21,326 bases of DNA from Chloroflexota bacterium (lineage in GTDB: Bacteria > Chloroflexota > UBA6077): the NCBI GenBank assembly GCA_021845945.1, contig JAJZRD010000039.1:1-21326 (forward strand). The letters run 5' to 3'. A program made the position numbers and the translations under genes. The notes beneath the pieces were generated by a model, which ran no database searches, was not told the DNA's origin, and was given only the letters and a program-made list of their open reading frames with translations. Every line of letters starts with the position of its first letter. Positions within the stretch are counted from its first letter, which is position 1. Positions 2,243 through 21,134 of the stretch are shown in pieces.

Positions 2243-2417
2243 ATCCATGCGTTGAGCGGGAGTAGTAGGCCGTCCCAAAAGCAGAGAGCCGGGAGGGTGA
2301 AAGCCGGCAGAAGAGGGGCCGAACTCGCCCGGGAGCAGCAGCGGTGAAGGCCAGTAGTCGCTGTCGGCCGGCGTCCGTTACAGCGCCGAAGAGCGGACGT
2401 TAGATCCCTTTCTCATG

Positions 2418-2492
2418 GGGCAGTGGCGCAGCGGGAGCGCGCTTCCTTGGCATGGAAGAGGTCAGGGGTTCAATTCCCCTCTGCTCCACCAT
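2418..2492 (+). tRNA. tRNA-Ala (anticodon GGC) inside the T-box leader
   Basis: A complete 75-nt cloverleaf with an encoded CCA. The acceptor stem is GGGGCAG (2418-2424) with CTGCTCC (2482-2488), and contains the G3:U70 wobble pair that identifies alanine tRNAs. D stem GCGC/GCGC (2427-2430, 2438-2441). Anticodon stem CTTCC/GGAAG (2443-2447, 2455-2459) with loop TTGGCAT and anticodon GGC at 2450-2452, reading GCC. Variable loop AGGTC. T stem AGGGG/CCCCT with loop TTCAATT. Discriminator A2489 and CCA 2490-2492. All helices are fully paired, so it looks functional. It lies between the upstream T-box stems and the T-box antiterminator, on the same strand. I see no convincing promoter of its own in the 18 nt between the last upstream T-box helix and the tRNA, so it is probably transcribed from the leuS promoter. 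Confidence 0.96.
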
Positions 2493-2591
2493 CACTTGAG
2501 GGCCCCTCACCAAGCAGGGGCCCGAATTGCACCTCACTTGGAGTGGGGTGGGGATCGAAAAATACGTCAAGCAGGGTGGTACCGCGGAACG

Positions 2592-2620
2592 GCCTTTCGC
2601 CCCTGGTTCGGGTGAAAGGC
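2592..2620 (+). terminator. T-box-controlled terminator hairpin before leuS
   Basis: An 11-pair stem runs GCCTTTCGCCC (2592-2602) with GGGTGAAAGGC (2610-2620), including one G-U pair, with a 7-nt loop. It is followed by TTTCGCATTGTTT, a weak T-rich tract. Bases 2601-2602 are shared with the alternative antiterminator helix, so the two folds exclude each other, as in known T-box leaders. The weak T tract leaves efficiency uncertain. Confidence 0.8.
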
Positions 2621-2726: not shown

Positions 2727-5183
2727 ATGGCTAAGCAGGTGGAGAAGTTCAACCCCAGCGAGATCGAGGCCAAGTGGCAGGCCGAGTGGGAGGAGATGGG
2801 GATCTACCGCGTCAAGGAGGATCCCTCCAAGCCGAAGCACTACGCCCTGGTCATGTTCCCCTACACCTCCGGCGACCTCCACGTCGGCCACTGGTACAAC
2901 TTCGCCCCTGCCGATACCCACGCCCGCTACAAGCGGATGCAGGGCTACAACGTCTTCGAGCCTATCGGTTTCGACGCCTTCGGTCTGCCCGCCGAGGAAG
3001 CCGCCATCAAGAACGGCATCAACCCCGCCGACTGGACCGAGCGCAACATCGAGAACATGACCCGCCAGCTGAAGACCATCGGCAACATGTACGACTGGAG
3101 CCACACCCTGGCCTCCTGCCGGCCCGATTACTACCGGTGGAATCAGTGGTTCTTCCTGCAGTTCTACAAGAGGGGGCTGGCTTACCGGGCCAAGGCGCCC
3201 GCAAACTGGTGCCCCCACTGCGAGACGGTCCTGGCCAACGAGCAGGTGGAGGAGGGCCGCTGCTGGCGGTGCGAGACAGTGGTGACCCGGGTGGACCTGG
3301 AGCAGTGGTTCTTCAAGATCACCGCCTACGCCGACGAACTGCTGGACTTCGACGAGATCGAGTGGCCCGAGCGGGTCGTGACCATGCAGCGCAACTGGAT
3401 CGGCCGCAGCGAGGGCGTCCAGTTCCGCATGCAGGTGGCCGACTCCGACGAGTCCTTCGAGGTCTTCACCACCCGGCCCGACACCATCTTCGGCATCACC
3501 TACGCCGTCCTGGCCCCGGAGCATCCGCTGGTGGAGAAGCTGACGGCTCCAGACCGCCGGCAGGAGGTGGCGGCTTACGTGGAGCAGGCCCGGCGCCAGA
3601 GCGAGATCGAGCGGCTGTCCACCGAGAAGGAGAAGACGGGGGTCTTCATCGGCGCCTACGCCATCAACCCGGTCAACGGTCACAGGGTGCCCATCTGGAT
3701 CGCCGACTACGTCCTGGGCACCTACGGTACCGGTGCCATCATGGCCGTGCCGGCCCACGACGAGCGGGACTTCGAGTTCGCCAGGCGGTTCGGTCTGGAG
3801 ATCCTGGAGGTGATCAGCCCCACCGGACAGCCCACGGGCGAGCTGCAGCAGGCCTATACCGAGCCGGGGATCATGATCAACTCCGGCCCCTTCGACGGCA
3901 CCCCCTCCGTGGAAGGCAAGACGAAGGTGGCCGAGTACCTGGAGTCCAAGGGGATCGGCCGGCGGACGGTGAACTACCGGATCCGTGACTGGCTGATCTC
4001 CCGCCAGCGATACTGGGGCACCCCCATTCCGATGCTGTACTGCGACCATTGCGGCATCGTTCCCGTGCCCGAGGAAGAGCTACCGGTGCTGCTGCCCAGG
4101 TACGAGGGAATGGAGTTCAAGACCCGTGTGAACCCCATGAAGTACGACGAGAACTTCCTGAACACCACCTGCCCTCAGTGCGGCGGTCCGGCCAGGCGCG
4201 AGACCGACACCATGGACACCTTCGTGGACTCCTCCTGGTACTTCCTGCGCTACACCGACCCGAAGTACCAGGAAGGTCCCTTCGATCCGCAGAAGGTCCA
4301 CTACTGGATGCCGGTGGATCAGTACATGGGCGGTGTCGAGCACGCCGTGATGCACCTGCTCTACTCTCGCTTCTTCCAGCGGGTACTGCGAGACATGGGG
4401 CTGGTGGAGACGGGCGAGCCCTTCCAGCGGCTGTACAACCAGGGGATCATCCTGGGCCCCGACGGCTACCGGATGAGCAAGTCCCGGGGCAACGTGGTGA
4501 ACCCCGACGAGTACGTCAAGCAGATGGGCGCCGATACCGTCCGCTGCTACCTGATGTTCATCGGTCCGTGGGACTCGGGAGGACCCTGGAGCGCCAGCGG
4601 GATTAGCGGCGTCTTCAAGTTCCTGAACCGAGCATGGGCCCTGGCGCTGCAGGATGCCCCCGGCCGGGGTGCCGGCAAGGCTACGGCGGAGGCCGACAAG
4701 AAGCTGACCCGAGCCATGCACAAGACCATCAAGGCCGTCACCGACGACATGGAAAAGTTCCGCTACAACACCATGCTGGCCCGGATGATGGAGTACGTGA
4801 ACGCCATGAACGCGGCCTACGACTCCGTCTCGGCGCCCGCCTGGAAGGAAGCAGTGCAGAAGCTGATCCTGCTACTGGCCCCCAGTGCCCCCCACCTGGC
4901 CGAGGAGTTGTGGCACCGAACCGGCCACGAGAAGCAGGGCAGCGTCCACCTGCAGAGCTGGCCGAAGTGGGAGGAGGCCCTCACCATCGAGGAGATGGTG
5001 ACCCTGGTGGTGCAGGTGAACGGCAAGGTCCGCGACAAGCTGGAGATACCGGTGGGCACCCCCAAGGAGGAGGTCCAGCAGCTGGTGCTGGGCAGGGAGA
5101 AGGTTCAGGCCTACCTGGACGGCCGGCGGGTCAAGGACGTGATCTACGTCCCCAACCGGCTGGTCAACGTGGTGATCATCTAA
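2727..5183 (+). CDS. leuS: Leucyl-tRNA synthetase
   Basis: Cytoplasmic class Ia synthetase charging tRNA-Leu with leucine; 818 residues, normal for bacterial LeuRS. The ATP-binding signature HVGH is at residues 52-55 and the KMSKS loop reads RMSKS at 582-586. Zinc-ligand cysteine pairs are at C162/C165 with C179/C182 and at C439/C442 with C482/C485. The editing domain (about 225-420) keeps TTRPDTIFG (248-256) and AHDERD (343-348), so hydrolysis of mischarged tRNA is expected. The C-terminus has the anticodon-binding helices and a final domain ending in VNVVII. The ATG at 2727 is chosen because GGAGGT lies 7 nt upstream and MAKQVEKFNPSEIEAKWQ aligns with the usual N-terminus. An in-frame ATG at 2628 would translate through a hairpin repeat and is unlikely. 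Expression should be controlled by the Leu T-box leader upstream. Confidence 0.99.
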   Translation: MAKQVEKFNPSEIEAKWQAEWEEMGIYRVKEDPSKPKHYALVMFPYTSGDLHVGHWYNFAPADTHARYKRMQGYNVFEPIGFDAFGLPAEEAAIKNGINPADWTERNIENMTRQLKTIGNMYDWSHTLASCRPDYYRWNQWFFLQFYKRGLAYRAKAPANWCPHCETVLANEQVEEGRCWRCETVVTRVDLEQWFFKITAYADELLDFDEIEWPERVVTMQRNWIGRSEGVQFRMQVADSDESFEVFTTRPDTIFGITYAVLAPEHPLVEKLTAPDRRQEVAAYVEQARRQSEIERLSTEKEKTGVFIGAYAINPVNGHRVPIWIADYVLGTYGTGAIMAVPAHDERDFEFARRFGLEILEVISPTGQPTGELQQAYTEPGIMINSGPFDGTPSVEGKTKVAEYLESKGIGRRTVNYRIRDWLISRQRYWGTPIPMLYCDHCGIVPVPEEELPVLLPRYEGMEFKTRVNPMKYDENFLNTTCPQCGGPARRETDTMDTFVDSSWYFLRYTDPKYQEGPFDPQKVHYWMPVDQYMGGVEHAVMHLLYSRFFQRVLRDMGLVETGEPFQRLYNQGIILGPDGYRMSKSRGNVVNPDEYVKQMGADTVRCYLMFIGPWDSGGPWSASGISGVFKFLNRAWALALQDAPGRGAGKATAEADKKLTRAMHKTIKAVTDDMEKFRYNTMLARMMEYVNAMNAAYDSVSAPAWKEAVQKLILLLAPSAPHLAEELWHRTGHEKQGSVHLQSWPKWEEALTIEEMVTLVVQVNGKVRDKLEIPVGTPKEEVQQLVLGREKVQAYLDGRRVKDVIYVPNRLVNVVII

Positions 5184-20294: not shown

Positions 20295-20396
20295 GCCTCT
20301 CCCTCTGGGAGAGGCCGACCGAGCGAAGCGAGGGCGGGTGAGGGTGGTACTCGCAACGCCACACTATCACCCTGACCCTCTCCCAGAGGGAGAGGG
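20295..20396. repeat. Pair of palindromic repeats between dnaB and the DnaD-like gene
   Basis: Two hairpin units lie head to head. GCCTCTCCC/GGGAGAGGC around TCT (20295-20315) is followed by a GAGCGAAGCGAGG spacer and GGGTGAGGGT. The second, CCCTCTCCC/GGGAGAGGG around AGA (20376-20396), is preceded by ATCACCCTGA. The flanking GGGTGAGGGT and ATCACCCTGACCCT are roughly inverted copies. The second unit matches the copy upstream of leuS apart from its 3-nt loop. Confidence 0.85.
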
Positions 20397-20411: not shown

Positions 20412-21134
20412 ATGAAGAAGTTCCACGGCTTTCCGGAGCGGATGCGCTACACACCGGTGCCGAACCTGGTCTTCAGCTCCCTCCTGGGAGAGATCGACGA
20501 CCTGTCGGAGCTGAAGGTCACCCTCTACCTGTTTCGGGTGCTGTACGAGAAGCGGGGGATACCCCGGCTGGCACGGCTGAGCGAGCTGGCGGCCGACCGC
20601 GCCCTGCTTCTGGCCATGCAGGAGGCGGGGGCCGAACCGCCCGAGCGACGGCTGATAGCCGCCCTGGACCGGGCCTGCACCCGGGGCACCCTGCTGGGCG
20701 CCACCCTGCAGGGGGAGGAGAGCGAGGATCGCTGCTACCTGCTGAATACCGCCCTGAATCGGGAGATGCTGAAGCGGGTGGAGCGGGGGGAGCTGAGCCT
20801 GGGCCAGGGGGTCGCCCGTGTGGATTGGGCGGTGCTGCCGGAGCAGCGCCCCACCATCTACGACCTGTACGAGCAGAACATCGGTCTCCTCGCCCCGCTG
20901 ATCGCCGAGGAGCTGCAGCAGGCGGAGGAGGCCTACCCCCCGGAGTGGATCGAGGACGCCTTCCGGGAGGCCGTCAGCTACAACCGGCGCAGCTGGCGCT
21001 ACGTGCGCCGCATCCTCGAGAACTGGGCCACCGACGGGAGAGGTGAGCATGGAAAGGGTAAGCGACATCCTAAAGGGTCTGAGTCCCCTTCAAAGTACCT
21101 CGAGGGGAAATACGCCCACCTCCTCCAGCGGTAG
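20412..21134 (+). CDS. DnaD-like primosomal protein
   Basis: 240-residue protein of the DnaD/DnaB2 superfamily, which remodels DNA and helps load the replicative helicase. The N-terminal half (about 1-110) looks winged-helix-like: VPNLVFSSLLGEIDDLSELK then VTLYLFRVL. The C-terminal DnaD domain begins near TIYDLYEQNIGLLAPLIAEE (about 152-171). It contains the diagnostic YPPEWIEDAFREAV, YNRRSWRYVRRILENW (about 177-206), where aromatic residues and W are conserved. A basic, low-complexity tail follows and overlaps the next gene by 86 nt. AAAGGTG lies upstream of ATG 20412. Its place directly after dnaB and before a DnaC-like gene supports a role in helicase loading. The family is clear; the exact role is inferred. 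Confidence 0.88.
   Translation: MKKFHGFPERMRYTPVPNLVFSSLLGEIDDLSELKVTLYLFRVLYEKRGIPRLARLSELAADRALLLAMQEAGAEPPERRLIAALDRACTRGTLLGATLQGEESEDRCYLLNTALNREMLKRVERGELSLGQGVARVDWAVLPEQRPTIYDLYEQNIGLLAPLIAEELQQAEEAYPPEWIEDAFREAVSYNRRSWRYVRRILENWATDGRGEHGKGKRHPKGSESPSKYLEGKYAHLLQR

Follow-up and report, generated by a model that had tools for sequence, protein, structure and literature searches.

A leucine T-box leader of leuS with a tRNA-Ala(GGC) gene in its Stem III loop

The closest described counterparts of the leader considered here are the T-box riboswitches of the leuS class (Rfam accession: RF00230), with which it shares a Stem I carrying a Leu specifier, a Stem II region, the succession RRRxG–Stem III–AA, a T-box bulge and leuS downstream; it differs from them in that its Stem III loop houses an entire tRNA gene, specific for a different amino acid. 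The leader lies in a 21,326-nt stretch of DNA from a Chloroflexota bacterium (GenBank assembly: GCA_021845945.1, contig JAJZRD010000039.1), the whole of which is referred to as the window. A variable Stem III, or insertions in Stem III, has been reported for T-boxes, with no tRNA gene at that position in the accessible portions of the papers concerned (PMC7583486, PMC7778990, PMC2494555). The first-pass annotation of the window knew of no described tRNA gene inside a T-box, and none was found here in the open-access literature, as covered by titles and the opening of abstracts, subscription papers and supplements lying outside the search.

Transfer RNAs within mRNA leaders are familiar from Escherichia coli metY-nusA and the tufB operon, tRNA–mRNA co-transcripts from whose precursor the leader tRNA is cut. 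The leader in the window resembles these in that its tRNA must likewise be cut out of an mRNA precursor, but there the tRNA lies beside the message, whereas here it lies inside the riboswitch domain. Comparable, too, are leuS loci in which the same tRNA-Ala(GGC) precedes a leuS T-box core (L010, L018, L121–L125 and L129); in these the tRNA stands outside the T-box, 5′ of Stem I, and L018 has a second gene, tRNA-Ala(CGC). The reading favoured for the window, at a probability of roughly 70%, is that of a leucine T-box of the transcription-terminating type whose apical Stem III loop harbours a functional tRNA-Ala(GGC), the two forming an old dual-output leader.

Anatomy of the leuS leader

When the Rfam T-box model was run on the window, a single match was obtained that spans all 219 model positions (1–219; E 5.5e-19), bearing out, at a score below the gathering cut-off, the earlier view that both flanks of the tRNA belong to one Leu T-box. 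The alignment covers Stem I with its specifier and then the Stem II region, skips a 161-nt unmodelled insert within Stem III, and resumes at the T-box sequence. The insert contains a complete tRNA-Ala(GGC) that ends in an encoded CCA (2489–2491) and carries G3:U70, both read from the sequence; the gene, the CCA and the G3:U70 pair had all been recognised in the first-pass annotation, which placed the tRNA one base too far downstream (2418–2492). G3:U70 is the identity pair of alanyl-tRNA synthetase, and the embedded copy is predicted to be a functional gene. The CTC specifier, also correctly located at first pass, fits the regulated downstream gene, leuS.

The minimum free energy (MFE) fold of 2388–2573 (−79.4 kcal/mol, z −2.71) pairs GACGT with ACGTC; between these arms lie an inner helix formed by GATCCC and GGGATC, two hairpins and the tRNA, which therefore occupies the loop side of Stem III and leaves the discriminator uninterrupted. 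The purine motif RRRxG, known for the Stem III region of T-boxes in the part of the source consulted (PMC7583486), stands directly 5′ of this stem. The features, in which L001 denotes the nearest relative found (Chloroflexi UBA6077), are as follows.

2243–2607, forward strand: leucine T-box leader, one element enclosing the tRNA (RF00230, 84.6 bits)
2324–2326, forward strand: specifier codon CTC (Leu), in the specifier loop GAACTCGCC
2391–2395, forward strand: GAGCG, matching the purine motif RRRxG that precedes Stem III (sequence)
2396–2400, forward strand: 5′ arm of Stem III, GACGT, paired with 2564–2568 in the MFE fold and in the anchored tests
2403–2408, forward strand: 5′ strand of the inner helix, GATCCC, paired with 2551–2556 in the MFE fold
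2417–2491, forward strand: tRNA-Ala(GGC) with G3:U70 and encoded CCA (ARAGORN; RF00005, 66.5 bits, gathering 29)
2500–2523, forward strand: first of two hairpins in the 3′ portion of the insert (fold; one C–G to U–A change against L001)
2530–2550, forward strand: the other of these two hairpins (fold; one A–U to G–C change against L001)
2551–2556, forward strand: 3′ strand of the inner helix, GGGATC (fold)
2564–2568, forward strand: 3′ arm of Stem III, ACGTC (fold, anchored tests)
2569–2570, forward strand: AA following Stem III (sequence; three bases 5′ of GGGTGG)
2573–2586, forward strand: T-box sequence AGGGTGGTACCGCG (sequence, covariance-model alignment)
2577–2583, forward strand: T-box bulge UGGUACC (sequence), the predicted UGGN partner of tRNA NCCA
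2592–2620, forward strand: hairpin resembling a terminator, GCCTTTCGCCC/GGGTGAAAGGC, its T tract weak (by eye only)
2727–5183, forward strand: leuS, leucine--tRNA ligase (TIGR00396, 1054.8 bits)

The LeuS of L001 is 81% identical to that of the window and the layout of its leader is the same, with a tRNA identical over all 75 bases and flanks that have diverged; both sides of two pairs in the extra hairpins have changed, as listed above. A single RF00230 match again spans the tRNA in L001 (65.6 bits) and in a more distant locus, L005 (109.5 bits). The T tract of the terminator-like hairpin in the window is poor (TTTCGCATTGTTT), and its counterpart in L001 ends in a clean run of T. A promoter scan of 2100–2730 found none.

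Two further roles for the embedded tRNA were considered and rejected: service as the ligand of its own T-box, on the reasoning that anticodon GGC mismatches specifier CUC, and pairing of an encoded ACCA end in cis with the bulge as a general rule, the ACCA being encoded in 67 of the 100 loci introduced next.

Stem III and the spread of the nesting

Preservation of Stem III around the tRNA was assessed in 100 non-redundant loci with a specifier, tRNA-Ala(GGC) and strict core (the window, 73 Chloroflexota and 26 Bacillota), kept from 105; L121, L122, L151, L203 and L280 were dropped for want of a specifier match or strict core, L121 and L122 representing chance GGGTGG matches in leaders whose tRNA lies outside. 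A helix search without anchors proved uninformative (means: native 7.62, swapped 6.15) and was replaced by anchored tests in which the 5′ arm directly follows RRRxG and the 3′ arm directly precedes AA, anchors picked after inspection of the loci with guidance from the published motif. Under this scheme at least 4 bp are formed in 84 loci and at least 5 bp in 75 (mean 5.79 bp), whereas exchange of 3′ flanks between loci lowers the mean to 2.00 bp (highest of 200 permutations, 2.34) and lets at most 19 of the 100 reach 5 bp. Basal 5-bp stems are of 46 distinct kinds, and AA occurs 4–6 nt 5′ of the core in every locus. With a single fixed anchor, scorable in 83 loci, 4.22 of 5 pairs are formed, against 2.81 when swapped and 1.02–2.19 when slid; kinship of the sequences inflates such contrasts somewhat, which is limited by counting the 57 distinct arm pairs alone (3.96 against 2.50).

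Stem III is thus preserved and co-varying around the tRNA across the 100 loci, and its replacement by the tRNA, one of the possibilities raised at first pass, is rejected: the stem is retained, with the tRNA in its loop. The gaps between Stem III and tRNA vary widely (0–57 and 1–72 nt). ARAGORN calls tRNA-Ala(GGC) in all 100 loci, G3:U70 is present in 97, and a hairpin followed by TTTT after the core, a further likeness to the leuS class, is found in 82, the window not being among them.

The breadth of the arrangement was gauged by genome scans for T-box cores that have a generic tRNA T-arm on their 5′ side, with neither tRNA type nor gene specified. The patterns need exact letters and span ∼30–90 nt, so that other T-arms are missed and the counts are lower bounds; the genomes are draws from larger groups and include many draft assemblies. 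Matches were obtained in 40 of 400 Chloroflexota genomes, in 28 of 348 Bacillota genomes and, with one letter relaxed, in 4 of 149 genomes from the phylum of L009, the third one sampled, the name of which is unsure (the L009 record is titled Actinomycetota bacterium, yet its LeuS groups among Chloroflexota). No earlier locus recurs in the third draw of genomes except the genome of L009 itself. The reversed-pattern control gave 0 matches, and the nesting pattern is absent from the 6 genomes behind the named loci L009, L021, L030, L040, L046 and L063. The same layout is therefore found in dozens of genomes, a search of relatives for tRNA genes just 5′ of T-box cores having already been suggested at first pass.

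Among the 72 scan matches, tRNA-Ala(GGC) is called by ARAGORN in 71, the remaining one (L275) being cut at the locus end, and in 4/4 of the third phylum; no other tRNA type is called. The gene downstream is leuS in 70, while L290 ends near the core and an ilvE-like open reading frame is the sole other downstream gene. The latter belongs to L151, where, by eye, the tRNA-carrying T-box core at 663 precedes a branched-chain aminotransferase frame in place of leuS. One RF00230 match spans the tRNA in all 17 Bacillota loci scanned (of 28 found), and in 15 of these it exceeds the gathering cut-off.

Sampling by LeuS gave a sparser picture. Of 80 LeuS loci retained, only L001 and L005, the latter from Sphaerobacteraceae, were seen to have a tRNA on the 5′ side of a T-box core at a distance of up to 130 nt. 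In the class of L001 (29 genomes, many with short leaders) nesting was seen in the leader of L001 alone, and in the class of L005, 120 genomes yielded 110 leuS leaders (some truncated, with the leuS start merely estimated for the 27 loci L244–L270), of which 36 have the tRNA inside the T-box and 46 have neither T-box core nor tRNA.

In most hosts tested the embedded copy is the only tRNA-Ala(GGC) found, counts that rest on a letter pattern. Of 18 Chloroflexota hosts, 14 gave a single match to an exact pattern and 4 gave none; the match is the embedded copy in 13 of the 14 and lies elsewhere in G050. In Bacillota hosts the pattern matched 26 of 28, with the embedded copy alone in 25 of the 28 and two copies in G696. 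When two mismatches were allowed, the embedded copy remained the sole GGC tRNA in 9 of 11 genomes, with a second in G408 and G439; the one further match in G001 is not tRNA-like.

History of the association

A FastTree phylogeny of 193 partial LeuS proteins (11 of 203 loci dropped) places the embedded Bacillota loci among Bacillota and spreads the embedded Chloroflexota loci widely, with L137, L155, L189 and L190 falling on the Bacillota side; phylum labels require 4 changes and the embedded state 11, on a tree that cannot separate gain from loss. Common ancestry with losses and ancient transfer both fit. Ten class-mates cluster with the window and L001 on this tree, and nesting was observed in none of the ten, some of their leaders being cut short.

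Several relatives display other arrangements. In L092 and L095, which group with the window, and in L111, a further class-mate of the window, tRNA-Ala(GGC) lies just 5′ of leuS, with no T-box core detected there by pattern or eye, no Rfam scan having been made of these three. In L010, L121–L125 and L129, a group which we take to be Thermomicrobium-like, the tRNA-Ala gene precedes Stem I and falls outside the T-box; on the tree these loci are nested among embedded ones. Relatives with the tRNA outside the leader, named at first pass as a finding that would tell against nesting, thus exist in part (L010, L121–L125 and L129, and, with no core found, L092 and L095); they bear on its history, not on its reality. 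The varied arrangements indicate that the parts recombine, yet the association of tRNA-Ala, Leu T-box and leuS persists.

A tRNA-Ala(CGC) lies 163–674 nt 5′ of the embedded tRNA in 24 of 96 loci (L137, L156, L162–L181, L189 and L190), the sole extra tRNA type in these. Elsewhere in the window, a palindrome (CCCTCTCCCnnnGGGAGAGGG) occurs at 2676–2696, 20295–20315 and 20376–20396 (up to 3 mismatches; 0.13 expected), a short dispersed repeat of which one copy lies between leader and leuS. At 20616–20710, on the minus strand, ARAGORN calls a tRNA-??? with a four-base anticodon, unsupported by Rfam at gathering and probably false.

Readings of the nested leader

The leader appears, as judged from its sequence, to combine a tRNA precursor and a gene switch in one short RNA. 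In the mechanism proposed, RNA polymerase would make Stem I first, Stem III would then acquire the folded tRNA-Ala cloverleaf as a plug-in domain, and the 3′ end of a tRNA-Leu bound at Stem I would next be read by the discriminator; whether to terminate or read on into leuS would be decided co-transcriptionally, within a short stretch and ahead of any cleavage. Release of tRNA-Ala, from terminated leader and full mRNA alike, would follow through RNase P and 3′ processing. As the first-pass annotation had anticipated, tRNA-Ala would be transcribed whatever the T-box decides, because the terminator position lies 3′ of the tRNA; its supply would follow the promoter, and leuS alone would be gated by tRNA-Leu charging. 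By analogy, and speculatively, Stem III bracketing both tRNA flanks may delay RNase P until the decision has been taken.

Several observations weigh against this dual-output reading. The T-box of the window scores below 93 bits, Rfam's gathering cut-off (which serves curation and is not a biological feature), so that a default Rfam scan returns the tRNA alone. Of the terminator reported before leuS at first pass, the hairpin stands by eye, and neither a terminator scan nor the hairpin-plus-TTTT script found a terminator in the window. The consensus fold of the window and L001, built from two sequences, includes the inner helix and leaves out the outer Stem III pairs, and the anchored Stem III test failed in 16 of the 100 loci, among which seven share GATCGAAAATCA 5′ of the core and L177 is cut by the 75-nt search window. 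Among the 110 leaders of the class of L005, 14 show a T-box core but lack the tRNA, 6 show tRNA-Ala but lack a strict core, and in 8 the tRNA is positioned 130–500 nt 5′ of the core; 11 Bacillota-titled leuS loci likewise have the core without a tRNA. Neither part is thus strictly dependent on the other. Maturation of the tRNA could, moreover, be hindered by base pairing close to its cleavage site, and the steps of expression, cleavage and regulation are ones that we infer from sequence.

The strongest competitor, to which somewhat less than even odds are given, shares the whole anatomy and differs in whether the nesting matters: the tRNA would have landed in a tolerant Stem III loop and been kept merely as the sole gene for that tRNA, without mutual influence. 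The occurrence of tRNA and T-box apart in relatives and the wide variation of the Stem III–tRNA gaps agree with such an origin, but the recurrence of one isoacceptor in one loop of one gene's T-box in three phyla would be a long persistence for a chance insertion, and among the 72 matches no other tRNA type is called and just one other downstream gene was seen. At the opposite pole, the embedded tRNA-Ala would be a working part as old as the phylum split, its folding and RNase P processing setting the time window of the T-box and coupling tRNA-Ala production to LeuS expression, a proposal regarded as rather doubtful.

Unlikely, too, is a T-box gated by processing, in which RNase P cleavage would race RNA polymerase and tRNA processing would tune read-through into leuS. 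Cleavage would indeed part specifier from antiterminator, and Stem III encloses the tRNA, abutting its 5′ side directly in some loci; the variable gaps nevertheless argue against a finely tuned geometry, and the Stem III pairs lie beyond the RCCA, so that the published effect would carry over by analogy only. Much less probable is a relic broken by the insertion, with leuS no longer under its control, the loss of regulation that had been entertained at first pass: it would accommodate the low score of the window, the failure of scan and script to find a terminator there and the class-mates in which no T-box core was found, and is contradicted by the co-variation of Stem III across the 100 loci, the retention of discriminator motif and core, the hairpin with TTTT in most embedded loci and the above-gathering scores of nearly all scanned Bacillota loci. 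An assembly or binning chimera, a concern voiced at first pass, can be set aside as having a negligible chance, given an independent relative (L001) with an identical tRNA and diverged flanks and a layout that recurs across numerous further genomes, in some cases on megabase-scale contigs.

For annotation, the locus is a warning that an overlap between a T-box call and a tRNA call can be legitimate, and that a T-box hosting a tRNA may, as here, miss default cut-offs. The Stem III loop is able to carry a whole tRNA, and in most hosts tested the sole tRNA-Ala(GGC) gene found sits in a leader that has to adopt the fold of a switch and also undergo cleavage as a tRNA precursor; the nested leader thereby makes testable how co-transcriptional folding, riboswitch decision and RNase P processing share one RNA.
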